Below the pieces are notes generated by a model. It made no database searches, had not been told where the DNA came from, and worked only from the letters and a program-made list of their open reading frames with translations. Positions 1,232 through 23,713 of a stretch of DNA of 32,270 nucleotides are shown piece by piece (within the stretch, counting starts at the first letter, position 1; every line of letters starts with the position of its first letter). The stretch is from Pseudomonadota bacterium. GTDB lineage: Bacteria; Pseudomonadota; Gammaproteobacteria; Competibacterales; Competibacteraceae. Made by a program: the position numbers and the translations under genes. The stretch covers positions 1 through 32,270 of the forward strand of contig JAUPTV010000165.1 in NCBI GenBank assembly GCA_030917925.1. Direction: 5' to 3'.

Positions 1232-4200
1232 ATGACCGCAACCGCTCATTTTCCATCGCCGCCTGACGCCGCGCCGCCAACGCCTTGCCAGATCGTTGAA
1301 CACGCCATTGCCCATCTGGATCATCTGCTGCCCGGCCAGGCACCGATTCTGAATTTCGTTCACCACAACACCCTGCATGGCTATCAGCATCTGCCCTTTG
1401 AGCAGGCACTGGCCGAGGCGGAACAACTTACCGGGATTCGGGCATGGCTGCCGGAAGCGGAATTCCGCAAGCGCTATTGGGAGGGCCGCATTGACGACGC
1501 GGACTGGGAAGCGGTCTTTGCGCAGCGCCCGACCCTGCATCCCGAAGCGACGCTGGCGCTCATCGGTGATCGGGCTATCCCCCGGAGTGAGGTGTTACGC
1601 ATCTCGCTCATTCATGGCGTCAAAGCGCTCACCCCCAGTCAACTGGTCTGGCAGATGGAAGAACTCGACGCTACCTGCCGCTTTCAGGACGACGTCCCGG
1701 AAACTGTCCGTCAGCGGTTGTTGAAAACGGCTGGGCAGGATAGCGGCGCGGCGCTCGAAGATTTGTGGGGTGCCTGTCTGGACGCTTTCGAGTTGCCCGC
1801 CGCCAGTCTGCACCCGGAAGATCTGGTGGATTTGCAGTTGAATCTGGCCAAATCGCTGCTGGCGCGGTTCAGAACCGAAAACAGCGGGAATGTCGAAGGG
1901 CCGGTGGTCCATCAGCGGATGTTGGCGGAAGCGCTGGCGCTGATTGAACGACTGTGCGCGGATGTGGGGGAAGGCGTCACCTTGCGCGGCCTGCTGCAAA
2001 CACTCACGGGTCAGGATTTACTGGATGAAGTTCGCCCCCAACTGATTCGTTGCTGCGCCGCCCATCTGGATGAAGGACTGGCCGCCTGGAATTTGCCGGA
2101 TCGCCATACCGGTTTGTACCCGGCCTGGCGTCGTTTGGCGGTCAGCGACCTGACTGGCAGCTTCGCGGGAGGGTCGGCGGGACGTCCGACCCTGACCCGC
2201 TGGCCCGAGGAACCGGTCAACGCGATCATCACTGAACTGCGGCGACTGGGATTGCCCGAATCCCGCTGGGCGGGCTATCTCACCCGCCTGGCGCTGGAAC
2301 TGCCCGGCTGGTCGGGGATGATGAATTGGCGGCAACAGCATCCCGACTACCCAGCCAATCGGGAAACGCCGGTAGCGCTGGCTGATTATCTGGCGGTGCG
2401 GCTGTGTCTTGACGGCCTGTGGATTGAACGCCAGGTTCGGGAAACCTGGGGACTGGAAGGGAGTCTGCCGGGATTGCGCACTTATCTATTGGCGAATCCG
2501 GCAGAAGCGCTGGTTCGGTATGCGCTTTATGAAGGACGCTTGCCGGAGTATCTGGCCAGCCGGGCGCGAGGATTGATTGAGAACCCGCTGGCGCAGTCCA
2601 GTGACTCTGATTCCAGGGAGCAGTCCAACCACCCCGGAGCTTCGCACCACCCCTCCTTATCCAAGGAGGGGAGGGATGCGTGGGATACACTGGCGGATAT
2701 GATCTGGACCTGGCGGCACAGTCCGGTAGCGGATCAGCCGGGCCTGCCAACGGTGCATGGCGATGCCTGGCGGCTGTTCCGGCTGGCCCAGCATCTCGGC
2801 CTGTCCGGTAGTGAATTGCGCAAACTTTCCCCGACGGATCGGGAACGCCTGCTGGCCGCATTGGATGAACTATCACCCGGTCAGCGTGGCGCACTCTGGC
2901 AATCGGCTTATGAACATCATTACCGGGACGCCCTGATCAACGCCCTGGCCAACAATCATGGGCGCTGGGCGGTTCGCGAACGACGACCGCAGGCGCAAAT
3001 CGTGTTCTGCATTGACGACCGTGAGGAAGGGTTCCGCCGTCATCTGGAAGAGTTGAATCCGGAGATCGAGACCCTGGGCGCAGCGGGTTTCTTTGGCGTA
3101 GCGATGAACTGGCGGGGGCTGGATGACCGCACGGTGACGCCACTGTGCCCGGTGGTGGTCACACCGGCTCACGAAGTCCGTGAAGTTCCCCGGCTGGGTG
3201 CTGAACGAGAACATACCCACCGCCACCAGCGCCGCCAGCAACAGAGTCGGCTCCGCGCCTTCTATCACGAAATCCGCCGCAATCTGCTGTCCTCCGCGCC
3301 CCTGATTGCTGCATTGACGCCGGGCGTATTGCCGATGCTCGTGGGCAAGGTCTTTGCGCCGTTCCGGCAGGGACAACTCGCTGAGGCACTGAATGCGTAC
3401 TGGGTTCCCAATGCGCCGACCGAAGCGGCGATTAACGCAGCGAACCCCGACCTCCCAGCAACCCCGGAACAGCCGCGTCCCGGTTTTACCGATGCTGAAC
3501 AGGCGGATCGGGTGGCCGGATTGTTGCGGAATATCGGCCTGACTTCTCAATTTGCGCCGCTGGTGATCCTCATGGGTCACGGCTCGATGAGTCAGAACAA
3601 TCCGCATTTGGGCGCTTATGACTGTGGCGCGTGTGGTGGGCGACATGGCGGGCCGAACGCCCGCACCTTCGCCGCCATGGCCAACCGTCCCGCCGTGCGG
3701 GCGCTGCTGGCGGAACGCGGGATGATCATTCCCGCCGAAACCGGGTTCATCGGCGCGGAACACAATACCTGTGATGAAAAGATTACGTTCTATGACCTGG
3801 CGGATTTGCCGACGGCGTTGGAACCGGCGTTCCGGGAAGTGCAGCGGTTGCTGGATCAAGCCGGCGCACTGTCCGCCCATGAGCGGTGTCGGCGCTTTGC
3901 CTCTGCGCCGCGCCACCCGACGCCGACCCAGGCGCTGCGCCATGTGATGGAGCGCTCCCGCGACTTCAGCCAGGCCCGCCCGGAACTCGGCCACGCCACG
4001 AATGCCGCGGCGCTGGTCGGTCGCCGGTCGATGAGCCAGGGGGTGTTTCTAGACCGGCGGGCGTTTTTGGTGTCCTACGATCCGACTCAAGACCCCAGTG
4101 GGACGGTGCTGGAAGGGATTCTGCTGGCGGTGGGGCCAGTCGGCGCGGGCATTAACCTGGAATACTACTTTTCCACAGTCAACAATGAGCGGCTGGGTTG

Positions 4201-4612
4201 CGGCACCAAGACGCCGCATAACGTGACCGGACTGTTTGCGGTGATGGAAGGGGCCAGCAGCGATTTACGCACCGGCCTACCCCGGCAAATGATTGAAATT
4301 CATGAACCGGTGCGGCTGCAAATCGTGGTGGAGGCCAAAACTGAGGTTCTCGCCGCGATTTACGGTCGCCAGGCTTCGTTACGCGAGTTGATCGGGAACG
4401 AGTGGGTTCATTTGATCGCCAAGGACCCGGACAGCGGAGAGTTCACGATTTTTGACCCGGCAACCGGCTTTGTTCCATGGACGGGGCCAGTGAAGCCGTT
4501 GCCGGTGCATCGCCGGTCCGGGGACGGGTATCGCGGACATACGGAACCCTTGCCGCCAGCGCTGATCGGTGAGGCGCTGATTGATTCAGGGACGCTCCTG
4601 ACATCGCCGTGA
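1232..4612 (+). CDS. dabA: Inorganic carbon pump subunit DabA (DUF2309/UPF0753)
   Basis: The 1126-residue protein belongs to the DUF2309/DabA family. With a NuoL-like membrane partner (DabB), DabA forms an energy-coupled carbon-uptake complex. The soluble subunit resembles beta-carbonic anhydrase and binds zinc. The expected zinc ligands are visible: Cys593 and Asp595 in VFCIDDREEG, His783 in MGHGS, and Cys798 in YDCGACGG. The N-terminal NFVHHNTLHG motif is also family-typical. An in-frame stretch of about 25 residues around 455-482, rich in Ser/His, coincides with a palindromic repeat at 2650-2671 and looks inserted. No clear Shine-Dalgarno precedes the ATG, so the exact start is less certain. 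The presumed NuoL/NuoM partners lie 7 kb downstream on the same strand, beyond an apparent insertion. Confidence 0.93.
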   Translation: MTATAHFPSPPDAAPPTPCQIVEHAIAHLDHLLPGQAPILNFVHHNTLHGYQHLPFEQALAEAEQLTGIRAWLPEAEFRKRYWEGRIDDADWEAVFAQRPTLHPEATLALIGDRAIPRSEVLRISLIHGVKALTPSQLVWQMEELDATCRFQDDVPETVRQRLLKTAGQDSGAALEDLWGACLDAFELPAASLHPEDLVDLQLNLAKSLLARFRTENSGNVEGPVVHQRMLAEALALIERLCADVGEGVTLRGLLQTLTGQDLLDEVRPQLIRCCAAHLDEGLAAWNLPDRHTGLYPAWRRLAVSDLTGSFAGGSAGRPTLTRWPEEPVNAIITELRRLGLPESRWAGYLTRLALELPGWSGMMNWRQQHPDYPANRETPVALADYLAVRLCLDGLWIERQVRETWGLEGSLPGLRTYLLANPAEALVRYALYEGRLPEYLASRARGLIENPLAQSSDSDSREQSNHPGASHHPSLSKEGRDAWDTLADMIWTWRHSPVADQPGLPTVHGDAWRLFRLAQHLGLSGSELRKLSPTDRERLLAALDELSPGQRGALWQSAYEHHYRDALINALANNHGRWAVRERRPQAQIVFCIDDREEGFRRHLEELNPEIETLGAAGFFGVAMNWRGLDDRTVTPLCPVVVTPAHEVREVPRLGAEREHTHRHQRRQQQSRLRAFYHEIRRNLLSSAPLIAALTPGVLPMLVGKVFAPFRQGQLAEALNAYWVPNAPTEAAINAANPDLPATPEQPRPGFTDAEQADRVAGLLRNIGLTSQFAPLVILMGHGSMSQNNPHLGAYDCGACGGRHGGPNARTFAAMANRPAVRALLAERGMIIPAETGFIGAEHNTCDEKITFYDLADLPTALEPAFREVQRLLDQAGALSAHERCRRFASAPRHPTPTQALRHVMERSRDFSQARPELGHATNAAALVGRRSMSQGVFLDRRAFLVSYDPTQDPSGTVLEGILLAVGPVGAGINLEYYFSTVNNERLGCGTKTPHNVTGLFAVMEGASSDLRTGLPRQMIEIHEPVRLQIVVEAKTEVLAAIYGRQASLRELIGNEWVHLIAKDPDSGEFTIFDPATGFVPWTGPVKPLPVHRRSGDGYRGHTEPLPPALIGEALIDSGTLLTSP
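2650..2671. repeat. Palindromic repeat inserted in frame within dabA
   Basis: A 9-bp perfect stem (2650-2658 with 2663-2671, loop ATCC) lies in the dabA reading frame. It codes for part of a low-complexity segment (HHPSLSKEG) between conserved DabA blocks. The stem core matches the type of palindrome found between genes at 1159-1187. Confidence 0.55.
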
Positions 4613-4645: not shown

Positions 4646-6260
4646 GGAGTTTCGCCATGCGCTTCTTCAATACCGAAGGCCCGATCCGGCCCGATGACCA
4701 CTATGGGCTGCCCCCGTTGCAGCGCTGGGATCTGGACGAGATTCTGACGCTGATCGACCAGAAGAAATATTTCCTGCTCCACGCCCCGCGCCAAACCGGC
4801 AAGACCACTTGTCTCTTGACGCTGATGGAGTTTCTGAACCGCGAAGGGCGCTATCGGGCGGTGTACGCCAATCTGGAAACCGCCCAGGCCGCCCGCGAGA
4901 ATGTCGCACTGGCGATGGCGGACATCGTGCAGACCGTCGCTGAGGCCGCCGCCCAACAGGCCAGCGATGCCACACTGGAAAGTCTGGCCCAAGCGGCGCT
5001 GACCGAGAGCGCCCCGACCCGCGCCCTGCGGCGCTTCCTGACCGACTGGTGTCAACGGACGCCGCAACCGCTGGTGCTGATGCTCGATGAGGTCGACGCC
5101 CTGGTAGGGGACACCCTCATCACGCTGCTGCGCCAACTCCGGGCCGGCTACCCCCAGCGACCCACCGCTTTTCCACAGACGGTTATTCTGTGCGGGGTGC
5201 GAGATTTGCGCGATTATCGGATTCACGCCCGCTCCGAATCCAGTCCGATCACCGGCGGCAGTGCCTTCAATATCAAGGCGGAATCCTTGCGTTTAGGCGA
5301 TTTCACTGCCGATGAAACGGCGGCCTTACTCCAGGAACACACGACGGAAACCGGACAAGTCTTCACCCCGGACGCCCTAGCCCGTGTTTGGGAACTCACC
5401 CAAGGCCAGCCGTGGCTAGTCAATGCGCTGGCCTATCACGCCTGTTTCCGTCGACCGGAAGGGCGTGATCGGAGTCGCCCGATAACGGTAGCCACGATTG
5501 ACCAGGCCAAGGAGTATCTGATCGTCGACCGAGTGACCCATCTGGATCAGTTAGCCGATAAGCTGCGCGAGGACCGGGTGCGGTGCGTGATCGAACCGAT
5601 GCTGGCCGGGACGCTCATGGAGGGTGTCCCCGAAGATGACCGGCAGTATCTAGTGGACTTGGGGCTGTTGCGTCGCGACGGTGCGGGTGGACTGGTGGTC
5701 GCTAATCCCATTTACCGCGAAGTCCTGCCCCGCGCTCTGGCCAGCGGTCCCCAGGACACCCTGCCCCGGATTGCCCCGACTTGGCTGAATGCCAACGGGA
5801 GCCTGAATCCCGAACGTCTGCTCGAGGCTTTTCTGGCCTTCTGGCGGCAACACGGTCAGCCACTCCTCGGCAGCGCCCCGTATCACGAAATCGCCCCGCA
5901 TCTGGTCTTGATGGCGTTCCTGCACCGGGTCGTAAATGGCGATGGAACCCTGGAGCGGGAATACGCCATTGGTTCGGGCCGCATGGACCTCTGTCTGCGC
6001 TACGGCCCGGTGACGCTGGGGATGGAACTGAAGGTCTGGCGTGATGGCGCTCCTGATCCGCTCAACCAGGGCCTGGCCCAATTGGACAGTTATCTGGCCG
6101 GATTGGGACTGGATACGGGTTGGCTGGTGATCTTCGACCGCCGGACCGGGCAGCCGCCCATCGCTGAACGCACCAGCAGCACCGAGCAGCTCAGTCCCCA
6201 GGGTCGGCGCATTCAGGTGGTACGCGCCTGAACGCTGACCCAAATACGTCTCTCTCCCCA
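4646..6260 (+). repeat. Long direct repeat, copy 1 (AAA gene plus short flanks)
   Basis: This stretch matches 9903-11517 at a constant offset of 5257 bp with no visible net indel. Similarity starts at the GGAGT ribosome-binding site, runs through the whole AAA gene and ends about 28 bp past its stop codon. Exact blocks include 5731-5786 (56 bp) and 6133-6197 (65 bp). The least similar part encodes residues 84-138. Confidence 0.85.
4657..6231 (+). CDS. AAA ATPase with C-terminal PD-(D/E)XK nuclease-like domain, copy 1
   Basis: The 524-residue protein has an N-terminal ATPase with Walker A APRQTGKTT (43-51) and Walker B LVLMLDEVD (139-147). A winged-helix-like middle part follows. The C-terminal domain has the signature of PD-(D/E)XK nucleases: Asp444, then Glu457-x-Lys459, then a QLDSY motif at 475-479. 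It matches the widespread 'ATP-binding protein / AAA-like + PDDEXK' family, whose biological role is not established. The ATG at 4657 follows GGGAG at good spacing, 45 bp after the dabA stop, so it is probably co-transcribed with dabA. It is nearly identical over much of its length to the copy at 9914-11488. The strongest divergence lies between Walker A and Walker B (residues 84-138). Confidence 0.85.
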   Translation: MRFFNTEGPIRPDDHYGLPPLQRWDLDEILTLIDQKKYFLLHAPRQTGKTTCLLTLMEFLNREGRYRAVYANLETAQAARENVALAMADIVQTVAEAAAQQASDATLESLAQAALTESAPTRALRRFLTDWCQRTPQPLVLMLDEVDALVGDTLITLLRQLRAGYPQRPTAFPQTVILCGVRDLRDYRIHARSESSPITGGSAFNIKAESLRLGDFTADETAALLQEHTTETGQVFTPDALARVWELTQGQPWLVNALAYHACFRRPEGRDRSRPITVATIDQAKEYLIVDRVTHLDQLADKLREDRVRCVIEPMLAGTLMEGVPEDDRQYLVDLGLLRRDGAGGLVVANPIYREVLPRALASGPQDTLPRIAPTWLNANGSLNPERLLEAFLAFWRQHGQPLLGSAPYHEIAPHLVLMAFLHRVVNGDGTLEREYAIGSGRMDLCLRYGPVTLGMELKVWRDGAPDPLNQGLAQLDSYLAGLGLDTGWLVIFDRRTGQPPIAERTSSTEQLSPQGRRIQVVRA

Positions 6261-6291: not shown

Positions 6292-7482
6292 CTACAGGAT
6301 ACCGCCCACCTCTTCCGCACTGGCGCGGAGTACGTCAATGCAGAAATCCAAATCCTCACGGCTGTGGCTGGCCGACACCGCCGCCCGTAGCCGCGCCATC
6401 CCCTTGGGAACCACCGGGTGGGGGATGGCTTGCACGTAAACGCCTCGACGCTGACAACTACGGGCCAACTGGTACGCCGGCCAATCCTCCCCGACCATGA
6501 TGGGGAAGATCATGGTTTGGCTGTGGCCATAGGAAAACCCGGTCTCCCGGAGCCGCTGGGCGAAATACCTTTGATTCTCATGCAGTCGGCTGACCCGTTG
6601 CGGTTCCTTTTCGATAACTTCCAGCGCCGCCAGCGACGCTGCCACCGCAGAGGGTGGTAAGACACCTGAGTAAATGAACCCCCGTGATTGGTGGTGCAGA
6701 AATTCGATCAACTTGTGGCTTCCAGCGATATACCCGCCAATACTCGGAATCGCCTTGCTCAAGGTTCCCATCTTGATATCCACGGCATCGGACGGGAGAC
6801 CGAAATGCTCTTCGATCCCATGCCCGGTCGCTCCCACGGTACCGGTCGCGTGGGCTTCGTCCACCATCAACATCGCGCCATGTTCCCGACACAGGCGGCT
6901 GACCGTCGGCAAGTCGATAATATCGCCGTCCATGCTGAACACCGCATCGACAATCACGAGCCTTTTTCCGGGGTGAGTCGGGTCTTTAAGGCACTCCTCC
7001 AAGTGTTCCATGTCGTTATGCCGAAAGCGCACCAACTTGGCCCCGGACAACTGACACCCATCCACGATACTGGCATGGTTAAGCTTGTCACAGATCACCG
7101 TGTCATGTCGTCTCATCAAGCACGCGATAGTGGAAATATTAGCTACCAGGCCACTGGTAAAAATTGCGGCATCCTCTGTTTTCTTAAACTTGGCGATTTT
7201 TGCCTCAAGCTCGCAATGAATTTCCAGCGTACCCGCCAACATCCGAGCGCCGTGCGCGCCCGTACCGTATTTTTCAATGGCGTGTTGTGCCGCCTCATTG
7301 ATAGCAGGATGCCCGTTCAACCCCAAATACGAATACCCACCGAGCATGAGCATCTCGCCATGCCCCGCCACTCGGACGCGATTATCCGGGAGATATTCCT
7401 GGATAGCCTCAAGGTAAAAATAAACATCGGCCTCTCGCATCGACTTAATGGGCCAGTATGTCTCCAATGATTTATCGTTCAT
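6292..7482 (-). CDS. Alpha-oxoamine synthase family PLP enzyme (BioF/KBL/CqsA-like)
   Basis: The 396-residue protein is a fold-type I PLP enzyme of the alpha-oxoamine synthase family. These enzymes condense an amino acid with an acyl thioester, with loss of CO2, to give an amino ketone. The PLP lysine is Lys243 in TLSKA; Asp208 and His211 lie in VDEAHATG, and His136 in DKLNHAS is the ring-stacking histidine. The ATG at 7482 is chosen because GGGAG lies 4 bases upstream; an ATG at 7503 and a TTG at 7509 are also in frame. It is the last gene of the fabA - lipase - amidase set. No biotin genes are nearby, so biotin synthesis is not supported. A fatty-acyl substrate, as for CqsA or serine palmitoyltransferase, would fit the fabA context but is inference. 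Confidence 0.85.
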   Translation of the reverse strand: MNDKSLETYWPIKSMREADVYFYLEAIQEYLPDNRVRVAGHGEMLMLGGYSYLGLNGHPAINEAAQHAIEKYGTGAHGARMLAGTLEIHCELEAKIAKFKKTEDAAIFTSGLVANISTIACLMRRHDTVICDKLNHASIVDGCQLSGAKLVRFRHNDMEHLEECLKDPTHPGKRLVIVDAVFSMDGDIIDLPTVSRLCREHGAMLMVDEAHATGTVGATGHGIEEHFGLPSDAVDIKMGTLSKAIPSIGGYIAGSHKLIEFLHHQSRGFIYSGVLPPSAVAASLAALEVIEKEPQRVSRLHENQRYFAQRLRETGFSYGHSQTMIFPIMVGEDWPAYQLARSCQRRGVYVQAIPHPVVPKGMARLRAAVSASHSREDLDFCIDVLRASAEEVGGIL

Positions 7483-7555
7483 GAATCTCCCATGCTTTGA
7501 CATTTGCAAAGCTTGTTATCTCGCAGAAAGTGGCCAAAATCACACCTGGTTAAAG

Positions 7556-8098
7556 TCATTTTGAAAATAGGCGAATATAAGATTTAGTCAGGTTCGGTTC
7601 CCTTTCTTTTCTCCAGACGCCATCATTGCTAATGCTGTCTCGGGTGCCTTTTTTATTAGTATTGCCTTCAATAGTGATAATTTTTGAGTGCAGTGAGGTT
7701 TGATCTTCAATGACCAGTCCAATATGGGAAAAATCAAACACCACGAAGTCGCCTGCCTTCGCCAATTCGGTTTCCTGCAGCACGGCAATTTCGTGTTTTT
7801 TTGCCCACTTTTCCCACCCGAAGGCGCTGGCATCCTGACAGCGAACCTTTTCCGCTTCTGCAAGCGTGAGCGTTGATCTTTTAAAGCAACTTTTTACATC
7901 ATTCCTCACTGGCTCATCCTTTAGCCACTCTCGCATGATCCAACAGGTAAATGCCGCACACCACGGCCAAGCCGCTGGCTCAAGCCAGGTTGCCCGCTGG
8001 TATTCTTCGATTTTTGGTCCAGTATTATTTCTTGCACTTTCATGAGTGCCAATTTCAGCCGTTGTAATATCAATCAGTTTTTTAATCGCTTGGTTCAT
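7556..8098 (-). CDS. CHAP/NlpC-P60-like cysteine amidase (TIGR02594-like)
   Basis: The 180-residue protein looks like a papain-fold amidase of the CHAP/TIGR02594 type, which cuts peptidoglycan peptides. A probable catalytic Cys47 lies in PWCAAF, His125 in SHIGLV, and a polar partner in EGNTN (Glu144/Asn146). The start EIGTHE...NNTGPKIEEY is typical for phage-like members. There is no signal peptide, so export would need lysis or a secretion system. The ATG at 8098 follows GAGG at good spacing. An alternative ATG at 8191-8189 overlaps the lipase stop codon as TGATG and would add 31 residues without domain similarity. The gene is AT-richer than the flanks. It could be a lysin, a toxin-type effector or a cell-wall remodelling enzyme. 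Confidence 0.72.
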   Translation of the reverse strand: MNQAIKKLIDITTAEIGTHESARNNTGPKIEEYQRATWLEPAAWPWCAAFTCWIMREWLKDEPVRNDVKSCFKRSTLTLAEAEKVRCQDASAFGWEKWAKKHEIAVLQETELAKAGDFVVFDFSHIGLVIEDQTSLHSKIITIEGNTNKKGTRDSISNDGVWRKEREPNLTKSYIRLFSK

Positions 8099-8190
8099 GT
8101 TGCTGACCTCATGGTGATGATCGAAAATTGACAAGAGTTGAAAAGGAGTAGTTATAGCGTAACCATTTAGTGGGGGGTTGGCGCTGTCCA

Positions 8191-9054
8191 TCAAACAGGA
8201 TTGATAAGCTTTGAATGAATGTTTTTGATATAACATTCCATGCTGTGATACTCGATATTGGAAGGTATTAAATCAAGGTGCTGTCTCAATGTCCCTTTGA
8301 TCGACTCTAGGAATTCTTGCCACCAACTGATATCATCAAAGAGATTGCCATCAGCATCAAAAAATCTCAGTAAACCGACATGCCCATAGCCTAATTCTCG
8401 GGGAGGTATTCTGGTGACAATATCGCTGTTATTCACAAATCTGAAAAATCGCTGCTTCAGATCAGCGTTAAAAATTCGGCAAAATTCACGATCCCCTGTT
8501 CTCGGTTGACCGAACGTGTAAACGCCCGCTACCGGTTTACCCATCTCTGAAACAAAGCGGGCGGCGGCTAACGTAGCCAGTGCGCCACCAAGACTATGAC
8601 CTGTAATCCAAAGCGGCTGGGCTTTTTTTTGAACTTCATCAAGAATTTCTAAAATGTCATTCCATACCAGGCAAAGCGCCCGCAAAAACCCACCATGAAC
8701 CTTTCCGGTACCGGCCTTAGCTGATGTGAGCAACAAATCCGAATTGGTCATCCAATCCTTAATTTTGTCTGTTCCTCTAAATGACAGCACAATGGCTGAA
8801 TCACTGTAGGCGATAAAGGCTTCAATATCTCTACGTTCAATAAACTGTGAATTAAATCCATGCAAATTGACCTGATCCTGAATGGTTTTCTCGTCTTCGT
8901 AAGCCAAGTTAGCGCAAAGTGCAAGGGCATAAGCATTTTGCAGTGAGAACTGCGTATTTTTTGGTTCAAATGAAATAGACACCGTTGACTTCTCCATCCT
9001 GGGTGGTTGAAATGCCTGACAGCACGTTAGACAGAATGTATTCATTGACCTCAT
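8191..9054 (-). CDS. Class 3 lipase (alpha/beta hydrolase)
   Basis: The 287-residue protein belongs to the Lipase_3 family (fungal-lipase-like), which hydrolyses acyl esters of glycerides or phospholipids. The triad is visible: Ser154 in GHSLGGA, Asp211 in NNSDIVTRIPP and His270 in YHSMECY. The oxyanion-region motif SFRGTDKIKDW lies at 91-101. No signal peptide or membrane segment is seen. The start is uncertain: ATG codons at 9054, 9045 and 8997 are in frame, none with a convincing ribosome-binding site, and the conserved domain begins near residue 37. It lies 18 bp after the fabA stop and is probably co-transcribed with it. Base composition is low for this window (the line 8221-8280 has 20 G/C in 60). 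Such lipases occur as secreted enzymes and as antibacterial effectors; no secretion genes are nearby. Confidence 0.85.
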   Translation of the reverse strand: MRSMNTFCLTCCQAFQPPRMEKSTVSISFEPKNTQFSLQNAYALALCANLAYEDEKTIQDQVNLHGFNSQFIERRDIEAFIAYSDSAIVLSFRGTDKIKDWMTNSDLLLTSAKAGTGKVHGGFLRALCLVWNDILEILDEVQKKAQPLWITGHSLGGALATLAAARFVSEMGKPVAGVYTFGQPRTGDREFCRIFNADLKQRFFRFVNNSDIVTRIPPRELGYGHVGLLRFFDADGNLFDDISWWQEFLESIKGTLRQHLDLIPSNIEYHSMECYIKNIHSKLINPV

Positions 9055-9072
9055 CGCACGACATTTTCATTC

Positions 9073-9588
9073 TTAAAAATGGTCGGTTGCAGTAAATAAT
9101 CCAACCCGCAAATTATGACCGAGGTAAATCGTCCGACCATCGACTTCCAAAGCTGCATCAGCAACCCCGATAACCAGTTGACGCAAAATGACCCGCTTTA
9201 TATGAAGGCGATACGTCAATTTTTGGGCGTCAGGCCGCACTTGGTCCATAAATTTGACCTGGCCACATCCCAGCGCTCGCCCTCGACCCGGTAAGCCTAG
9301 CCAGCCCAGAAAAAACCCGGTTAATTGCAACATCCCTTCTAATCCCAGACACCCCGGCATCACCGGGTCGCCTATAAAATGACAGCTAAAAAACCACAGG
9401 TCGGGATGAATATCCAATTCCGCAATCACTTCACCTTTTCCATAGTGACCGCCTTCCGAACTGATATAAATAATGCGATTCATCATCAGCATATTCGGCG
9501 ATGGCAATTGCGCGATGCCAGGGCCGAATAATTCACCGCGAGCGCAAGCCAACAGCTCCTGATAGGTGTAGCTGGATGATTTATTCAC
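9073..9588 (-). CDS. fabA: FabA-family 3-hydroxyacyl-ACP dehydratase with Glu at the catalytic Asp position
   Basis: The 171-residue protein aligns along its full length with E. coli FabA (172 residues), the hot-dog-fold dehydratase/isomerase of unsaturated fatty acid synthesis. Landmark motifs are RGELFG, PNMLMM, DLWFF and [15 protein letters not shown]. The catalytic His is His70. The residue matching the catalytic Asp of FabA is Glu84 (codon GAA at 9339-9337), as in FabZ. This may weaken the isomerase step, giving a specialised dehydratase. No fabB lies beside it, unlike classical fabA-fabB pairs. The start is GTG at 9588: an in-frame TAG lies a few codons upstream and the N-terminus matches E. 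coli. The ribosome-binding site is weak. It is the first gene of the inserted minus-strand operon, behind a promoter with a T18 spacer. Confidence 0.88.
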
Positions 9589-9720
9589 GAATTGCGACTA
9601 CCTGAAAGGCTTATGGAAAACAGCAGTCACCGGTTATTCAACGAACTATGGAGGAGTGTTGTGTAGCGCATGAGATTCCCTGGATGATCGTCAATTTTTT
9701 TATTGTTAATCTTGTAAGTG

Positions 9721-9751
9721 ATTATGCAAAAAAAAAAAAAAAAAATGTCAA
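9721..9751 (-). promoter_or_regulatory. fabA-operon promoter with homopolymer spacer (probable phase-variable promoter)
   Basis: Read on the minus strand, a perfect -35 TTGACA (9751-9746) is followed at once by 18 T (9745-9728), one G (9727) and CATAAT (9726-9721, 5 of 6 matches to the -10 consensus). The spacer is therefore 19 bp, two above the sigma-70 optimum of 17. Loss of two T would give an ideal promoter. The expected start point is near 9714, leaving a leader of about 125 bases before the fabA GTG. Slippage in such tracts is a known cause of phase variation; that it happens here is inference. Confidence 0.65.
9728..9745. repeat. Homopolymer A18/T18 tract
   Basis: There are 18 consecutive A on the plus strand, by far the longest homopolymer in the window. 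It sits exactly between the -35 and -10 boxes of the fabA promoter. The assembled length may not be exact, since sequencing often miscounts such runs. Confidence 0.9.
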
Positions 9752-9902
9752 GAAGTTTTTTAAAATATTCCGTCTATAAAGTTGACTAAAATGCTCGATC
9801 AGTTCATCCCTACCGAACTGAACAACTCACGGGCCGACGGGGATTACGAACAATCAGGTCCACACGCCGCCTGCTATACTCCCCTTCTTGCCCCTGTCCC
9901 CC

Positions 9903-11517
9903 GGAGTCCCGCCATGCGCTTCTTTAACACTGAAGGCCCGATTCGGCTCGAAGACCATTACAGCCTGCCACCGCTAAATCGTTGGAATCTGAGCGAAGTC
10001 TTGGCGTTGATCGACCAGAAAAAATACTTTCTGCTTCATGCGCCCCGCCAGACCGGCAAAACGACCTGTCTGCTGGCGCTGATGGACTATCTCAACCGCG
10101 AAGGGCGCTACCGGACGCTCTATGCCAATATCGAAGGGACACAAACCGCCCGCGAGGATGTGGACCGAGGTATGGCGACTATTTGCAGTGTGCTGGGCCG
10201 CTCGGCGCGGCTGTATTTGCAGGATCGGCGGCTTGCCGACTGGTATCGGGACGGCGGCGCCGCTGTTCCCGCTGATGATCGGCTCGTCCAGTTGCTAGAG
10301 TTCTGGGCGGCCACCGATCCGCGCCCCGCTGTGTTGCTGTTGGACGAGGTGGATGCTCTGGTGGGCGACACGCTCATTTCGCTATTGCGGCAGTTGCGGG
10401 CAGGCTACAACCAGCGGCCCACCGCTTTTCCACAGACGGTCATTCTGTGCGGGGTGCGTGATTTGCGCGACTACCGCATTCACGCTCGTTCCGAACCCAG
10501 TCCGATCACCGGCGGCAGCGCCTTCAATATCAAGGCCGAGTCACTGCGCCTTGGCGACTTCACCACGGATGAGGTCGCAACCCTGCTTCAGGAACACACG
10601 ACGGAAACTGGACAAGTTTTCACCCCCGAGGCGCTGGAGCGGGTCTGGTATCTGACGCAGGGTCAACCCTGGCTGGTCAATGCCCTGGCCTACCATGTCT
10701 GTTTTCGCCTGCCAACCGGGCGGGACCGGACGCAGCCGATCACTGTGGAACAAATTGACCAAGCCAAGGAGTATCTGATCGTCCACCGAGTCACCCATCT
10801 GGATCAGTTGGCCGATAAATTGCGCGAGGAGCGGGTGCGGCGAGTGATTGAACCCATGCTGGCGGGAACGCTCATGGAGGGTGTCCCCGAAGATGACCGG
10901 CAGTATCTGGTGGACCTGGGGTTGTTGCGCCGCGACGGGGCGGGCGGGCTAGTGGTCGCCAATCCGATCTACCGCGAAGTGTTGCCTCGCGCTCTGGCCA
11001 GCGGTCCCCAGGACACCCTGCCCCGGATTGCCCCGACTTGGCTCCATCCCGATGGTGCGTTGAATCCGGAACGCCTGCTGGCCGCCTTTCTCGACTTCTG
11101 GCGGCAACACGGTCAGCCACTGCTCGGCAGCGCCCCGTATCACGAAATCGCCCCGCATCTGGTATTGATGGCCTTCCTACACCGGGTGGTCAATGGCGAT
11201 GGAACGTTGGAACGCGAATATGCTATCGGCTCGGGCCGCATGGACCTCTGTCTGCGCTATGGCGCGGTGACGTTGGGGATGGAACTCAAAGTCTGGCGCG
11301 ATGGTGTCGCCGATCCGCTTAATCAGGGTCTGGCCCAGTTGGACAGTTATCTGGCCGGATTGGGACTGGATACCGGCTGGCTGGTGATTTTCGACCGCCG
11401 GACCGGGCAGCCGCCCATCGCTGAACGCACCAGCAGCACCGAGCAGCTCAGTCCGCAGGGCCGGCGCATCCAGGTAGTGCGCGCCTGAACGCCGGCCCAA
11501 ATACATCCCTCCCCCAA
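9903..11517 (+). repeat. Long direct repeat, copy 2 (AAA gene plus short flanks)
   Basis: This is the partner of 4646-6260, in the same orientation. The 5257-bp offset holds at the start codons (4657/9914), at a 56-bp exact block (10988-11043) and at a 65-bp exact block (11390-11454). Homologous recombination between the copies would remove one AAA gene and everything between them. Confidence 0.85.
9914..11488 (+). CDS. AAA ATPase with C-terminal PD-(D/E)XK nuclease-like domain, copy 2
   Basis: This 524-residue protein has the same length as copy 1 and the same motifs: Walker A APRQTGKTT (43-51), Walker B LLLDEVD (141-147), and a PD-(D/E)XK pattern in RMDL...MELKV near residues 443-460. Residues 1-83 and 139-524 are very similar to copy 1. 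Residues 84-138 are largely unlike it but of identical length, with aromatic and charged residues (SARLYLQD, LADWYRD) in place of an Ala-rich helix. The start follows GGAGT at proper spacing. It lies upstream of the NuoL-NuoM fusion with a 77-bp gap, so it may be co-transcribed with the carbon-pump membrane genes. Function is unknown; the divergent segment may set partner or target specificity. Confidence 0.85.
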   Translation: MRFFNTEGPIRLEDHYSLPPLNRWNLSEVLALIDQKKYFLLHAPRQTGKTTCLLALMDYLNREGRYRTLYANIEGTQTAREDVDRGMATICSVLGRSARLYLQDRRLADWYRDGGAAVPADDRLVQLLEFWAATDPRPAVLLLDEVDALVGDTLISLLRQLRAGYNQRPTAFPQTVILCGVRDLRDYRIHARSEPSPITGGSAFNIKAESLRLGDFTTDEVATLLQEHTTETGQVFTPEALERVWYLTQGQPWLVNALAYHVCFRLPTGRDRTQPITVEQIDQAKEYLIVHRVTHLDQLADKLREERVRRVIEPMLAGTLMEGVPEDDRQYLVDLGLLRRDGAGGLVVANPIYREVLPRALASGPQDTLPRIAPTWLHPDGALNPERLLAAFLDFWRQHGQPLLGSAPYHEIAPHLVLMAFLHRVVNGDGTLEREYAIGSGRMDLCLRYGAVTLGMELKVWRDGVADPLNQGLAQLDSYLAGLGLDTGWLVIFDRRTGQPPIAERTSSTEQLSPQGRRIQVVRA

Positions 11518-11565: not shown

Positions 11566-14500
11566 ATGCCTGACTGGCTTATCATTCTGATTCCCGCTCT
11601 GCCGCTGGCTGCTGCCCTGTGGATCGGGCTGGCGATCCTGTTCGGCCATGCCCACGGGGAAGCGCATGAACCGCGCACCAGCCGCATCACCCTGGCCACC
11701 AGCGCCGGTTCCCTGGCGACGACGCTGATTCTTATTGTGGCCTGGTTCACGGGAATCGCGCCGGAAGCCATGACCCTCAGCCATTGGCTGACCAGCGGCG
11801 ATGACCGCATTGATCTGAACTTTCTCATCGACGGTTTAAGCCTAACCTTGCTGGCGATTACGACCCTGGCCAGTCTGCTCATTACCCGCTTTGCCGTGAA
11901 CTATATGCACCGGGAAGCGGGCTTTCATCGCTTCTTTATGATTCTCAGCCTGTTTACTGCGGCAATGACGCTGCTGGTGGCGGGCGGCAATGCGGTGCTG
12001 ACCTTCATCGGCTGGGAGGTTGCGGGACTGTGTTCCTATCTGCTCATTTCCTTTTTCCAGGATCGTCCCGTCGCGGCAGGCAATGCCACTCGCGCCTTCG
12101 TCACCAACCGGGTCGGCGACGCCGGGTTTCTGTTGGGTATTGCGCTGGCCTTTCATTGGCTGGGCAGTGCGGACTGGGCAACGGTCAATACCGGTGCGGC
12201 GAATTTAAGCCCGATGCAGGCGGGTATTTTAGCCGGGTGCTTCCTGCTGGCGGCGGTCGCGAAATCGGCCCAGGTTCCACTGATTCCATGGCTGGCCCGC
12301 GCCATGGAAGGACCGACGCCCTCCAGTGCGCTGTTCTACGGGATGGTGATGGTTCATGCCGGGGTTTATCTGGTGCTGCGCCTGCAACCGCTGTTTGAAC
12401 AATCGCCGGTGGCGATGGCGGTGATGGCGGTCATCGGTTTGGCGACCGCTCTGTACAGCTTTCTGAGCGGATTAACCCAGACCGATATTAAGAGTGCACT
12501 GATTTTCTCGACGTCTGGACAGGTCGGGCTGATGTTTCTCGCCAGTGGTCTGGGCTTCTGGCCATGGGCGCTGATTCATCTCGGTTGCCATGCCCTGTTC
12601 CGGGGTTATCAATTCCTCACGGCTCCTTCGATCCTGCGTCAGATGGATGGGGAACGCACCCGCCCGGTCTCGAACCTCCTCGCGCAACGCCCCGGTCTGT
12701 ATACCGCAGCCCTTCAGCGGTTCTGGCTGGAGGATCTGGCGGACCGGCTGATCGTCCACCCGGTGCAGCGATTAGCGGGGAGCTTGATGCGGTTCGATAC
12801 GCTGGTGGTGGATCGGGCAACGGGATTGCCGGCCCCGGCGGTCAACGCCCTGTCCTCGGTCGCGCAATGGGAAGAACGGCAACTCGGCGCTGGACGAGTC
12901 CTGGAGCGCCCTCCTAGAGCGACGGATCAGGAACCCGGTATTCTGGCGATGGCGACGGAATGGATCGCGGCGGTTTCCAATCAGGTGGAAGACCAGTTGA
13001 TGCTGAAAAGCGCCGGTCACGGACTGGCCGTCGCGGGCCACCGGATGGGACAGGCGCTGAACCGTGTGGAACGCTGGCTGGGGCGCTCCTGGGCGTCGAT
13101 GGCCCTGCTGATCGCTGCACTGGCGGCGCTGGTCGGGATCAGCGCCATGATGACCGAGGCTGAACCGGGTGCATCCGGCTTTCCGCTGTTGAGCGCGCTG
13201 CTGCTGGTCCCGCTGGCCGGGATGCTCGCGACCTTCCGCGTCCGGCAGGCGACTACGGCCTTTGCCTTGGCGCTGGGCACCGCCGCGATTGAATTGCTTC
13301 TGGCGCTGCAACTGTTGTTGCATTTCCAACCTGATGCGCCGGGAATGCAGTTCGTTGAACAGTTCAACCTCTTCGGCTTCAACGCCCTGATGGGGGTAGA
13401 CGGCATCAGTATTCTGTTTCTGCCCCTGACGGCGCTACTGACACTGTTTGTCCTGCTCTACACCCAGTCGCACCGCCAGCAACAGGAACGTCCGGGCCGG
13501 TTTGTGGCGAATATTCTCGCGCTGGAATTCGTGCTGATTGGAATGTTCACGGCGTTGAACTTGTTGCAATTCTGGGTATTCGCCCTGGCCGAAGCCATTC
13601 CGGCAGCAGTGTTGATCGCTCGCTATGGCACCAGTCCGGCGCGGCACCGGGCGGCGCGGTATTTTCTGCGCTTCATGGGGAGCGGCCTGGCGGCATTGCT
13701 GATCGGCATCGGCCTATTGGGCTGGAACCATACGGTATTGAGCGGACAGAGCTGGTCATTCGCGTTGGCTGATCTGCTGGAAACGCCAGCACCCGCGAAT
13801 CAGCAATCATTGATTTTCATCCTGCTGTTTGCCGGGCTGGCGGTGCGGCTGGCGCTGTTCCCGTTTCATAGCTGGTTACCCATCGTCGCCAAGCATGGCA
13901 CGATTGCCATTGGCATTGTCTTTCTGGTCGGCGTCAAAGTCGGCATCTATGCGCTATTGCGCTTCGTCTTCCCGTTGCTGCCAGCCGCCGCCCACTACTG
14001 GGATACCGCGATTATGACCTTGGGCCTGGTCGGAATGCTCTATGGTGCGTTGCTGGCGTTCCGGCAAATCGACCTGCGCCGGTTACTGGCCTTTGCCGCA
14101 ATCAGCCAGTCTGGATTGTTGGTCGCCGGGCTGTTTTCGCTGAATCCCGCCGGATTGCGGGGCAGTCTGCTGCTGGCGCTGAATCTAGGCTTGGCCGCCT
14201 CCGGGTTGTTCATCGTCGCCGGATTGCTGTACCACCGATTGGGAACGACCCGCTTTAAACGGGTGGGCGGGCTGTTTGAAACCGCGCCCCTGCTGGGACT
14301 GGTGTTTCTGGTGGTGGTGCTGGGCAGCATCGCCATGCCGGGTACGCCGGGCTTCGAGGCGGCGCATCTGGCGCTGGAGGGGTTGCTGGAATCGCATGGC
14401 TGGGGCGTGGCAACGCTGGCGGCTTCCGGGAACGTGCTGGCCGCTGGCTATTTACTCTGGGCTTATCAGCGCATTTTTCTGGCCCGCCACCCACGGGGCA

Positions 14501-14688
14501 TTGCTTCACAAATCCGCGACTTGCAGCATCGGGAATTGATTATGGCCGGACTGCTCTGCGCGGTGATGATTAGCGTCGGGCTGTACGCCGACCCGTGGAT
14601 CAAGACGATTAGCGGAGCCGTCGATGCCACGGCGCATCGCTTGGAAGCCGTGGTTGGAACGAGCCACTCTGCGCCGGTTGACCACTGA
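11566..14688 (+). CDS. NuoL-NuoM fusion, DabB-like proton channel subunit
   Basis: The 1040-residue membrane protein is two complex-I antiporter-type modules in one chain. Residues 1 to about 350 are NuoL-like, with the proton-path residues in place: Glu151 (GWEVAGLCSYLL), Lys233 (AVAKSAQ), His264 (MVHAGVYL) and Lys309 (TDIKSAL). The usual TM10 Lys is Arg346. Residues 360-505 are a charged linker resembling the end of NuoL. Residues from about 510 are NuoM-like (FPFHSWLP 765-772) but altered: the TM5 Glu is displaced (Glu676) and the TM7 Lys is Arg761, while Lys791 is kept. DabB proteins are NuoL homologues that energise DabA, so a role in proton-driven carbon uptake fits. GGGGAAAG precedes the ATG. 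Next comes a separate NuoM-like gene, 16 bp away. Confidence 0.82.
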   Translation: MPDWLIILIPALPLAAALWIGLAILFGHAHGEAHEPRTSRITLATSAGSLATTLILIVAWFTGIAPEAMTLSHWLTSGDDRIDLNFLIDGLSLTLLAITTLASLLITRFAVNYMHREAGFHRFFMILSLFTAAMTLLVAGGNAVLTFIGWEVAGLCSYLLISFFQDRPVAAGNATRAFVTNRVGDAGFLLGIALAFHWLGSADWATVNTGAANLSPMQAGILAGCFLLAAVAKSAQVPLIPWLARAMEGPTPSSALFYGMVMVHAGVYLVLRLQPLFEQSPVAMAVMAVIGLATALYSFLSGLTQTDIKSALIFSTSGQVGLMFLASGLGFWPWALIHLGCHALFRGYQFLTAPSILRQMDGERTRPVSNLLAQRPGLYTAALQRFWLEDLADRLIVHPVQRLAGSLMRFDTLVVDRATGLPAPAVNALSSVAQWEERQLGAGRVLERPPRATDQEPGILAMATEWIAAVSNQVEDQLMLKSAGHGLAVAGHRMGQALNRVERWLGRSWASMALLIAALAALVGISAMMTEAEPGASGFPLLSALLLVPLAGMLATFRVRQATTAFALALGTAAIELLLALQLLLHFQPDAPGMQFVEQFNLFGFNALMGVDGISILFLPLTALLTLFVLLYTQSHRQQQERPGRFVANILALEFVLIGMFTALNLLQFWVFALAEAIPAAVLIARYGTSPARHRAARYFLRFMGSGLAALLIGIGLLGWNHTVLSGQSWSFALADLLETPAPANQQSLIFILLFAGLAVRLALFPFHSWLPIVAKHGTIAIGIVFLVGVKVGIYALLRFVFPLLPAAAHYWDTAIMTLGLVGMLYGALLAFRQIDLRRLLAFAAISQSGLLVAGLFSLNPAGLRGSLLLALNLGLAASGLFIVAGLLYHRLGTTRFKRVGGLFETAPLLGLVFLVVVLGSIAMPGTPGFEAAHLALEGLLESHGWGVATLAASGNVLAAGYLLWAYQRIFLARHPRGIASQIRDLQHRELIMAGLLCAVMISVGLYADPWIKTISGAVDATAHRLEAVVGTSHSAPVDH

Positions 14689-14704
14689 ATAGAGAGCTTG
14701 AGCG

Positions 14705-16249
14705 ATGACTCCCGAATCCACCCCCTTCAATTTCCCCATCCTGAGCCTGCTCATTCTCCTGCCGCTGGTCTGGGCATGCCTGCTGCCGTTCCTGCGCGAG
14801 AGTCGCACAGTGCGCCGGGTTGCGCTGGTCGGGGCCGGGCTGGAACTGGCGCTGGCGTTGCTGATGCTGGCCACCTTCCGCCCGGACGTTGCCGGTATGC
14901 AGTTCGTAGAACAGGCGTCCTGGATACCCAGTCTGAACGTCCATTATTTACTGGGCATGGATGGTATCGCCGTGCTGTTTCCACCGCTGACGGCGCTGCT
15001 GTTTAGCGCGGTCATTCTGGCGTCCTGGACTAGTATCCAGTCCCTGCCCCGGCTCTATTTCGCCCTGCTGCTGGCGCTGGAAAGTTTCATCATGGGCATC
15101 TTCTGCGCCCTGGATCTGGTGCTGTTTTTCCTGTTCTGGGAATTGACTCTGGTGCCGATCTATTTCCTGATCAGCCTGTGGGGTATCGGTCCGGAACGCC
15201 GCTACGCCGCGACGAAATACACCTTGTTCATGCTGGCCGGGGGCGTTCCGCTGCTGTTTGGCGTCATCCTGCTCGCGTTGAATCACCCCGGTGGGTTGAG
15301 CTTTGACTATCGGATACTGCTGGAACAGCCGCTGTCCGCTCAGTGGCAAACGCCGGTGTTTCTACTGCTGTTCTTCGGCTTCGCGGTGAAAGCGCCGCTC
15401 TTTCCGTTCCACACCTGGTTGCCCACTGTGCTGCGGGAGGGGCCGGTGGGACTGAGTGCGCTGCTGGTGGGTCTTAAACTGGGCGTGTTCGGCCTCCTGC
15501 GCTTCGCCCTGCCCCTGGCCCCGGAAGCGGCCAAGGATCACTTCTGGCTGATGACGGTCCTGGGCCTGATCGGGTTGATCTATGGGGCGCTGATCGCATT
15601 GCGCCAGTCCAATCTGCGCAAGATGCTGGCGTTTTCCAGCATCAGCCATGTCGGGCTGGTGGTCGTCGGCTTGGCAGCAATGAACATTCAGGGGATTCAG
15701 GGCGCGGTCTTGCAACTGGCCAATTTCAGCATCATCGCTGGCGGCCTGATGCTGATGGCCGGGTTTCTGCACCATCGCCTGGGTTCCACGGATCTGGCCA
15801 GCCTGGGCGGACTGGCCCAGCCCCTGCCCCGTTTCACCGCGCTGTTCCTGCTGCTGGGCATGGCGTCCATTGGGTTGCCGGGCACGAATGGCTTTATTGC
15901 TGAACTGCTGATGCTGTTGGGGATTTTGCAATCTTCAACCGGCGTAGCAGTCCTCGCCCTGCTCGGCGTGATTCTGAGCGCGGCCTATTTTCTGAGCTTC
16001 TTCCAGCGGGCGTTCCTCGGTCCGGTCACGCAACCGGTGGTCGCTTCCGCCATGGATCTGCGGCCCCGCGAACTGTGCATCGCCAGCGTGATGGGTTTAC
16101 TGGTTCTCACCGGCGGACTGTTCCCCGGACTGACGCAAAACCTGACCGCTACCGCCGCAAACGCCTGGGTGATGCGGATCGGGTCTTCCCCACCGGTGCC
16201 ACCACTAGCCGGCATAATCCCTGACCGCCAGCCAGGCGTCCTTCCCTGA
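14705..16249 (+). CDS. NuoM-like antiporter subunit
   Basis: The 514-residue polytopic membrane protein is of the NuoM/MrpD type. Proton-path residues are kept: Glu146 in FWELTLVPIYF, Lys229 in GFAVKAPLFPFHTWLP and Lys258 in GLKLGVFGLLRF. Near residue 64 it shares GMQFVEQ and an xMGxDGI block with the second half of the upstream fusion, so the two modules look like ancient paralogues. No other complex I genes (nuoA-K, nuoN) are present, which argues against a respiratory complex I operon and for a DabAB-like carbon pump or Mrp-like complex. It starts 16 bp after the fusion gene. The last 45 bp overlap the end of the convergent glycosyltransferase gene. Confidence 0.85.
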   Translation: MTPESTPFNFPILSLLILLPLVWACLLPFLRESRTVRRVALVGAGLELALALLMLATFRPDVAGMQFVEQASWIPSLNVHYLLGMDGIAVLFPPLTALLFSAVILASWTSIQSLPRLYFALLLALESFIMGIFCALDLVLFFLFWELTLVPIYFLISLWGIGPERRYAATKYTLFMLAGGVPLLFGVILLALNHPGGLSFDYRILLEQPLSAQWQTPVFLLLFFGFAVKAPLFPFHTWLPTVLREGPVGLSALLVGLKLGVFGLLRFALPLAPEAAKDHFWLMTVLGLIGLIYGALIALRQSNLRKMLAFSSISHVGLVVVGLAAMNIQGIQGAVLQLANFSIIAGGLMLMAGFLHHRLGSTDLASLGGLAQPLPRFTALFLLLGMASIGLPGTNGFIAELLMLLGILQSSTGVAVLALLGVILSAAYFLSFFQRAFLGPVTQPVVASAMDLRPRELCIASVMGLLVLTGGLFPGLTQNLTATAANAWVMRIGSSPPVPPLAGIIPDRQPGVLP

Positions 16250-17755
16250 GCCGCGTTTCAGCCGGAGCCGCCAGGCCCAGTAGCTTTTGCGACGGTTATA
16301 GCGCCCAACGACGCCGAGCAGTTCCGCAGGGGTCAGGGCAATGGGGTCTTCAAACAGATCATATTTCGCTGCCGCCCGGTAATTGGCCAGTAATCGGGGC
16401 TGAATAACGCGACTCGCCCATTCATGCGAGGCGATCTGGGTCATGAACAGCTTCTCTTCCAGTTCACGGGTGTGGTGCTGACGAACGAAATCCTTGAGCA
16501 GCCGGAAGATGGGGAAGTGGACATGCAGGCGTTCGTCATCAACGCTGATGTCCTGGCCGGGCCGCTGCTGGCGGTAGTTGTAATAGCAGGCGTTCACAAC
16601 CGACAGCCGTTCGGCCAAAGCTAAAGTCATAAAGTGAAACGGCAGATCATCAAAACGCCGGATCATGTGCGGAAAGTCGATGGCGTTGCCGGTCAGAAAA
16701 TCCCGCCGGTAGATTCGCCGCCAGATGGTGGGACGCCAGGGGATCAGATCTTTTGGGTTGGCAATCAACCCGTTGCCCTCGCCAATTTTTTCAGTCAGGG
16801 AAAAGTATTCCCGCTCATCGGTCCAGGTCTGGTCACTGTCATAGCAGTGGCGGTATCCGCACTGGGCAATATCGCTGGTAAAGCGGACCGCCGACTCGGC
16901 CAGCGCCTGGAACATGGGCGGATCCACCCAGTCGTCGCCATCCACCAGGCCGACAAACATCCCGGTAGCGGCCTTGAGACCGTTGGATCGGGCCGCAGCA
17001 CAACCGGCGTTAGGCTGATGGATCACCCGAACCCGTGCATCCCGCTGCGCCCACTCGTCGGCAATCTGCCCGGACCGATCTCTGGCCCCATCGTCCACAA
17101 TGATAATTTCCAGACTCTCCAGCGTCTGGCTGACCAGACTTTCCAGGCAATGATCGAGGTACGCTTCAATGCCATAGGCCGGGACCACGATGCTCACGTC
17201 TGGCCCTTGCTGGCTGCTACCCGGCATCGGCAAACCGGTGGTCAGGTTCTGCCAATGAAAGGTTCGGGCGGTTTCGCGGCTGACGCGATGCACCCACAGT
17301 GGATTCGCCTGTACTTCCGCAAATTCGCCAACCAGATGCTCAATGCGAAATGATCTGGTCAGTTCCGCCAGCAATGTTTTTGAAAAACCGGCCTGATCAA
17401 GGCAAACCAGCCCGAGGTTGGGACAGGCGGTTTTCAGAACGTCCAGGCACTCAGTGGAATTTTCATACAGTTTCAGATGATCCAGGCCCAGATGATGAGC
17501 GGATTCCTCAATCGCAGCTCTCAAGTGGACATCACGCTCAACGACAAAGATCGATTGATGAGGGTTTGCCGCCGCCAGCATTAACGCCAACAGTCCCGAA
17601 CGCCCGCCGATGATCAGGGATGACCGATTGAGGGTCCCCGTAAAAATATAAGGCCCGTAGTAATGCTGATTAAGGCGCGTAAGGTCGGTTTCCAGGAGCC
17701 GTTCAGCGGTTCGGGAAGATAACTGACTGACAATAGTTTGAATGTGGTATTGCAT
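16205..17755 (-). CDS. GT2 glycosyltransferase with N-terminal Rossmann/methyltransferase-like domain
   Basis: The 516-residue protein has two parts. Residues 40-180 look like a Rossmann fold of the methyltransferase/FkbM kind (SLIIGGRSGLLAL, FVVERD, GLVCLD), perhaps degenerate. From residue 186 follows a family 2 glycosyltransferase (VSIVVPAY, DDGA 221-224, DGDD 272-275), which moves a sugar from a nucleotide sugar to a growing glycan in the cytoplasm. It is the last gene of the minus-strand polysaccharide cluster, 12 bp after the preceding gene. Its 3' end overlaps the nuoM-like gene tail to tail. The sugar transferred is unknown. Confidence 0.85.
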   Translation of the reverse strand: MQYHIQTIVSQLSSRTAERLLETDLTRLNQHYYGPYIFTGTLNRSSLIIGGRSGLLALMLAAANPHQSIFVVERDVHLRAAIEESAHHLGLDHLKLYENSTECLDVLKTACPNLGLVCLDQAGFSKTLLAELTRSFRIEHLVGEFAEVQANPLWVHRVSRETARTFHWQNLTTGLPMPGSSQQGPDVSIVVPAYGIEAYLDHCLESLVSQTLESLEIIIVDDGARDRSGQIADEWAQRDARVRVIHQPNAGCAAARSNGLKAATGMFVGLVDGDDWVDPPMFQALAESAVRFTSDIAQCGYRHCYDSDQTWTDEREYFSLTEKIGEGNGLIANPKDLIPWRPTIWRRIYRRDFLTGNAIDFPHMIRRFDDLPFHFMTLALAERLSVVNACYYNYRQQRPGQDISVDDERLHVHFPIFRLLKDFVRQHHTRELEEKLFMTQIASHEWASRVIQPRLLANYRAAAKYDLFEDPIALTPAELLGVVGRYNRRKSYWAWRLRLKRGSGKDAWLAVRDYAG

Positions 17756-17767
17756 AGCTTAGCGACT

Positions 17768-20184: not shown

Positions 20185-20226
20185 CGCTGATCGCTCCAGT
20201 ATAAGGTGTGTTGGAAAGTGTTCATA

Positions 20227-20666
20227 TCAGCGCTGTTGCCACCGGCTTAACCGGGCATTGAACCAGCGCAGGGGCGTAGTCAGCCGCCAGGACAGGGAGG
20301 CGTACACCCCACTGAGTTCACTTTCCAGGCGCAAACCGCGATGGACTTCCTCCAACAGGCGGCGCTCGTAATACGCCTTGAGGTCGGCTTGCTCAACCTT
20401 GGCGCTGGCCAGTTCGGTTTCCAGTCGCTCGCGTTCTAACCGGGTCGCGGCGAGTTCCGCTAAAGCGTTATTGAACTCGCGGCGCATCGTCACATCTTCC
20501 AGGGTCATGGCGAGCAGTCGGGCCTGCAATTGGCGCTTGATGCGGCCCTGCTCCTGCCTGGCATGGTTCAGTTGTGCTTCAAGATCGCGAACATGCCGCT
20601 CAAGCTTGAGCATCGACGGGTCACTGGTTTGGTCAGACCGGGGTTCAGGCGGGATATCAAGATTCA

Positions 20667-20667
<1 letters not shown>
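20227..20667 (-). CDS. Small coiled-coil protein of the polysaccharide cluster
   Basis: The 146-residue protein is mostly a long coiled coil (about residues 18-115, heptads rich in Leu, Glu, Arg and Ala). It ends with SLSWRLTTPLRWF, a tail often seen at the C-terminus of polysaccharide biosynthesis proteins. No catalytic motif is seen. The ATG overlaps the stop of the upstream double glycosyltransferase as TGATG, indicating coupled translation. It may act as a scaffold or chain-length ruler for the glycosyltransferases; that role is inference. Confidence 0.75.
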
Positions 20668-23637
<2,970 letters not shown>

Positions 23638-23665
23638 TTAAAAGGTTATGTTCTTGATGAGTGGC

Positions 23666-23695
23666 ATTATAGACTGAAACCACCCGGCTTGACAG
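23666..23695 (-). promoter_or_regulatory. Promoter upstream of glf
   Basis: On the minus strand, CTGTCA (23695-23690, 4 of 6 matches) and a perfect TATAAT (23671-23666) are 18 bp apart. The start would be near 23659, about 34 bases before the glf ATG. This suggests that glf and the genes after it form a transcription unit of their own. Confidence 0.5.
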
Positions 23696-23713
23696 CGCAC
23701 CAGTGGCCAGGAC

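Follow-up and report, generated by a model that had tools for sequence, protein, structure and literature searches.

A promoter whose spacer consists almost entirely of one repeated base raises the question of whether the length of that run sets its output. Such a promoter stands in a Competibacteraceae (Gammaproteobacteria) genome, on contig JAUPTV010000165.1 of assembly GCA_030917925.1, positions 1 to 32,270 of which form the stretch analysed here (the window, 32,270 nucleotides). On the minus strand, the −35 hexamer TTGACA (9751–9746), identical to the sigma-70 hexamer at six of six bases, is followed by a homopolymer of 18 T (T18; 9745–9728), a single G (9727) that is conserved in alignments, and the −10 hexamer CATAAT (9726–9721; five of six bases), with the run supplying 18 of the 19 bases of the −35/−10 spacer; both the sequence and the coordinates of the original prediction are exact. 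The reading that we favour, with confidence a little above even, is that of a sigma-70-type promoter of an acquired-looking operon, with its strength set by a T run that slips between the −35 and −10 hexamers. The genes driven would be fabA2, encoding a divergent FabA paralogue, followed by those for a class 3 lipase, a CHAP/NlpC-P60-like amidase and an alpha-oxoamine synthase.

Promoter anatomy and the rarity of the tract

A homopolymer placed between −35 and −10 is the first mark of promoters of the type known from Mycoplasma hyorhinis vlp and Neisseria meningitidis porA, and transcription from the present example is predicted to start near 9714. Upstream of the −35 hexamer, an AT-rich, UP-element-like stretch (TAGACGGAATATTTTAAAAAACTTC; 9752–9784, minus strand) is kept, according to alignments, as AGGCAGAA..TTTCAAAAA in the sister promoters described below. 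An inverted repeat, TCAGTTC-N9-GAACTGA (9799–9821), lies ∼50 bp upstream of the −35 hexamer and is a possible operator.

A scan for A/T runs across the 4,198,777 bases (4.2 Mb; 299 contigs) of the genome identified eight of at least 10 bases, seven of them measuring 10–11; T18 is the longest and the sole run of at least 14, and as a tract it lies far beyond chance. No such promoter surrounds the remaining runs of 10–11 in this genome, with the exception of one on contig C134. Among 369 genomes of the class, the pattern TTGACA-T8-N7-12-NATAAT gave one match, the T18 promoter itself, and its reversed control gave zero; when the AT-rich flanks were shuffled, a −35/−10 pair matching at least 11 of 12 bases around the given tract arose in 0.12% of cases. 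One match to the T-run pattern in viral contigs was set aside as an AT-rich chance match without the other features of the promoter family. An intrinsic terminator was likewise rejected as an identity for the tract, there being no hairpin adjacent to it (fold z-score 0.07), and the minus strand having no gene immediately upstream whose transcription it could end.

Sister promoters and a probably captured leader

The A/T run at C134, in the same genome (G000), has the same surroundings as the T18 tract, CTTGACTTCGA-T10-GCATAATTACTTATAA against CTTGACA-T18-GCATAATCACTTACAA, and forms a promoter with a 15-bp spacer. The two promoter regions are 73% identical over 130 bp (blastn, E 6e-10 at genome size), and with both tracts masked the downstream part alone retains 76% identity over 70 bp (blastn, E 1.7e-4). 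Homology extends through the leader and Shine-Dalgarno sequence to the start codon (ATGCG), which at C134 opens a gene with a product truncated to 115 amino acids. The orthologue of this gene in G019, a genome of a different genus, is 90% identical and full-length, and matches the C92 (YiiX-type) amidase family weakly but above cut-off; downstream of the C92 amidase gene on C134 lies a gene encoding an HELVH-motif protein, a pairing also found in G019. On C134, the T10 promoter and this gene pair make up the stretch L127 5843–7694. The orthologous promoter in G019 reads TTGACT-AA-T10-G-CATAAA, with a spacer of 13 bp. The two closest sisters of the T18 promoter both carry T10, and TTGACT replaces TTGACA in most sister promoters.

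Between the T18 promoter and fabA2, a remnant 14-codon frame (MRYTTLLHSSLNNR; 9627–9671, minus strand) has its own Shine-Dalgarno sequence (AGGGA, 9681–9677), corresponds in position and start to the C92 amidase gene that follows the promoter on C134, and ends 38 bases before fabA2. On the simplest interpretation, the promoter of an amidase gene was captured and now precedes the fabA2 operon, which would make the T18 promoter a copy of the element preceding the C92 amidase gene elsewhere in the genome and in another genus.

A sequence model (R1), built from the T18, C134 and G019 promoters, was used to search 39 genomes of the family. It recovered its three source promoters at E 1.3e-13 or better and gave further matches covering most of the model at E 7e-4 to 8e-4 in G029, in G035 and at a second G019 locus, two or three weaker members with tracts of T6–T8 that bring the set to five or six; weak matches such as those in G014, G003, G001 and G011 were left out of membership. 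The G029 member (TTGACT-ACAATAA-T8-G-CATAAA) has a 16-bp spacer, the G035 member (AGGCAGAA..TTTTCAAAAA..CTTG.., T8, GCATAAA) is of less certain spacing, and the second G019 locus reads TTGACT-A-T6-GG.., without GCATAA. The model was built without the T8 members that it found. All three added loci lie upstream of frames that, as judged by sequence, start like secreted proteins. Across the better copies, TTGAC and GCATAA are kept around tracts of T18, T10, T10, T8 and T8, and the spacing from TTGAC(A/T) to CATAA(A/T) is 13, 15, 16 or 19 bp.

These homologues bear directly on the reliability of the run. Several related assemblies contain runs of at least 14 T, most at contig ends and some next to Illumina adapter sequence, an observation that lends some weight to a sequencing or assembly artefact as the source of T18. 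The T18 run, however, sits 9.7 kb inside its contig, and at the sister locus a T run occupies the same position, with homologous DNA continuing to either side of it; kept flanks around a tract of varying length are also what slippage produces, which argues against an assembly artefact. With sister promoters in hand, an artefactual origin was rejected and retains a negligible probability, although the true number of T may differ from 18 by one or two. In one related assembly (G036), long T runs accompanied by Illumina adapter at the ends of contigs (L058, L076 and others) represent uncleaned adapter.

Considered as a set, the kept flanks around a variable run represent a footprint of slippage over evolutionary time and do not amount to evidence of switching within one population. 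A dispersed class of T-run promoters in this bacterial family, a contingency element spreading between loci and captured by unrelated operons (those of amidases, secreted proteins and a lipid-enzyme operon), is a tentative proposal that we consider possible but do not expect to hold; were it true, dispersed T-run promoters would make heritable variation in expression at several loci available to an environmental lineage that is apparently non-pathogenic.

Tract length and promoter output

Promoter activity declines away from a 17-bp spacer. Under the favoured reading, the pure T run that forms the spacer would slip during replication, and gain or loss of T would shift the spacing around this optimum, moving expression up or down. 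Judged by spacing, T18 (19 bp) is probably a weak state and the optimum would be reached at T16; expression would be expected to rise on loss of one to three T, and the population to be mixed. Between promoter copies, the tract length has already changed. The spacer-length phase variation put forward in the original prediction is partly supported by the promoter anatomy and by homologues that differ in tract and in spacing (13, 15, 16 and 19 bp), a difference in tract length that is shared with the vlp/porA type and that here holds between loci and species only.

Several observations weigh against a length-set promoter. The genome contains mutS, and slippage would therefore be limited; slippage is less frequent in A/T runs than in G/C runs (PMC3899988); the chance probability of the −35/−10 pair, 0.12% as given above, is good but not overwhelming; and spacers of 13 and 15 bp, as in the sister promoters, depart so far from 17 that the element may be read otherwise than as a plain sigma-70 promoter. 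The presence of mutS, together with tract differences between species and loci that drift alone could explain, would also suit an ordinary promoter of fixed output, in which an AT-rich spacer drifts in length over evolutionary time and switching is irrelevant in the living population. We regard this as rather unlikely, since an uninterrupted run of 18 is a far outlier in the run-length distribution of the genome and the orthologous promoters of two genera have retained long pure runs (T10, T10).

The range of spacings, 13–19 bp, is in turn hard to fit to a single sigma-70 optimum, and conservation reaches well beyond the hexamers (CTTGAC, GCATAA and an upstream AGGC..GAA..CAAAAA block), as would be expected if another sigma factor or a bound regulator read the element and the T run served as a stiff or bent linker of minor importance in its exact length. 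A possible loose resemblance of CTTGA..CAT to heat-shock promoters could be counted in the same direction. Hexamers that match sigma-70 at six of six (TTGACA) and five of six (CATAAT) bases speak against such a reader, as does the failure to identify a regulator gene or site, and we consider it unlikely, more so than fixed output.

Most known contingency loci in promoter spacers come from host-adapted pathogens, and the A tract of vlp lies within the promoter spacer. In M. hyorhinis, a change in the length of this homopolymeric A tract in the promoter region switches transcription of vlp (PMC10502178), and the present element is alike in having a homopolymeric A/T tract in its promoter region; vlp differs in that its genes encode surface lipoproteins of a mycoplasma adapted to its host, in which ON/OFF clones have been demonstrated, whereas here the switching is putative and concerns an enzyme operon in an environmental genome. 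The porA promoter of N. meningitidis also has a homopolymer inside the −10/−35 spacer, where one base alters transcription (PMC3899988), but that tract is a poly-G, which slips more readily and precedes a surface porin, in contrast to a poly-T accounting for 18 of the 19 spacer bases. In Helicobacter pylori sabA, a promoter-region poly-T ranging from T5 to T28 among strains, and varying in length during infection, provides graded tuning of output (PMC4081817). Poly-T of variable length in the promoter region is common to both systems, although the sabA tract lies between the core promoter and an UP-like element and the present one between −35 and −10. Haemophilus influenzae hifA/hifB likewise has a repeat that sets −35/−10 spacing (PMC3899988), in that case a dinucleotide repeat common to two divergent promoters, whereas the divergent AAA-type ATPase gene in the window has its own likely −10 (TGCTATACT, ∼140 bp from the T18 tract). 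The T18 promoter probably operates in the manner of the vlp and porA contingency promoters, as a switch or a dial moved by copying slippage.

Contingency loci are usually found gene by gene; here a homologous set with differing tracts and kept flanks has been identified in an apparently environmental lineage. The lengths in such a set form a natural series in which the influence of spacing on promoter output can be tested, and they give cause to count tract lengths in existing metagenome reads.

The fabA2 operon and its genomic setting

The lead gene, fabA2 (9073–9588, minus strand), is a divergent second copy of fabA and not the housekeeping gene, which corrects the original description of a fabA operon. 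The native fabA is on another contig (C275), next to a fabB-like gene, and the identity of FabA2 to native family copies is 78% at best. In the numbering of Escherichia coli FabA, H70 is kept, and position 84 is E in FabA2 but D in all 30 native copies; in FabZ, Glu takes the place of the catalytic Asp84. The marks of a housekeeping fabA unit, H70 with D84 and an adjoining fabB, are not combined at fabA2, and its identification as the native gene was rejected on the grounds of E84 and of the copy on C275. The corrected target of the promoter is a divergent paralogue of FabA in which a FabZ-like Glu occupies the catalytic position. A switch at the essential fabA would meet the objection that its OFF state is lethal; as the lead gene is a paralogue, that objection falls away.

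At ten positions where the 30 native FabA of the family do not vary, FabA2 carries a different residue (D84E, W87L and eight more), which may indicate a change of function. The FabA tree places fabA2 on a long branch of unresolved position. Both the alterations at invariant positions and the remnant of a lost gene start in the leader would be accommodated by decay, that is, by an operon no longer under selection whose promoter run expanded purposelessly. We consider decay very improbable, as all four operon frames are open and most codon differences between fabA2 and its native counterpart are silent (dN 0.14, dS 1.25, an estimate that averages both branches).

Behind fabA2, on the same strand, follow the class 3 lipase gene (8191–9054; Pfam Lipase_3, E 1.6e-34), the CHAP/NlpC-P60-like amidase gene (7556–8236, with a likely start Met at 8098 and a weak Pfam CHAP match below the curated cut-off) and the alpha-oxoamine synthase gene (6292–7509), of the BioF/Kbl/serine palmitoyltransferase kind. 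The segment has 43–56% GC amid genes of ∼62% GC, an island-like composition that gives the operon its acquired look. Homologues of the lipase in 38 other family genomes are weak and partial, and a 39% relative in Methylotetracoccus is not part of any such operon; the CHAP protein has weak matches alone in the class sample of 369 genomes, and relatives of the oxoamine synthase (34–39%) occur in nearly all family members. Searches of plasmid and viral sequences did not find the operon.

Two AAA ATPase genes, at 4657–6231 and 9914–11488 (the latter being the divergent plus-strand gene), are 83% identical, in direct orientation, and lie on either side of the low-GC operon. Six matches to this multi-copy AAA family occur in the genome and as many as twelve in relatives, and recombination between copies could therefore remove the operon. 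The flanks (1232–4612 and 11566–16249) hold dabA, for an inorganic-carbon transporter, and two proton-antiporter-type subunits, as if a DAB locus had been split. A cluster of family 2 glycosyltransferase genes with a UDP-galactopyranose mutase gene (16205–24925; 47–60% GC) probably serves a surface polysaccharide.
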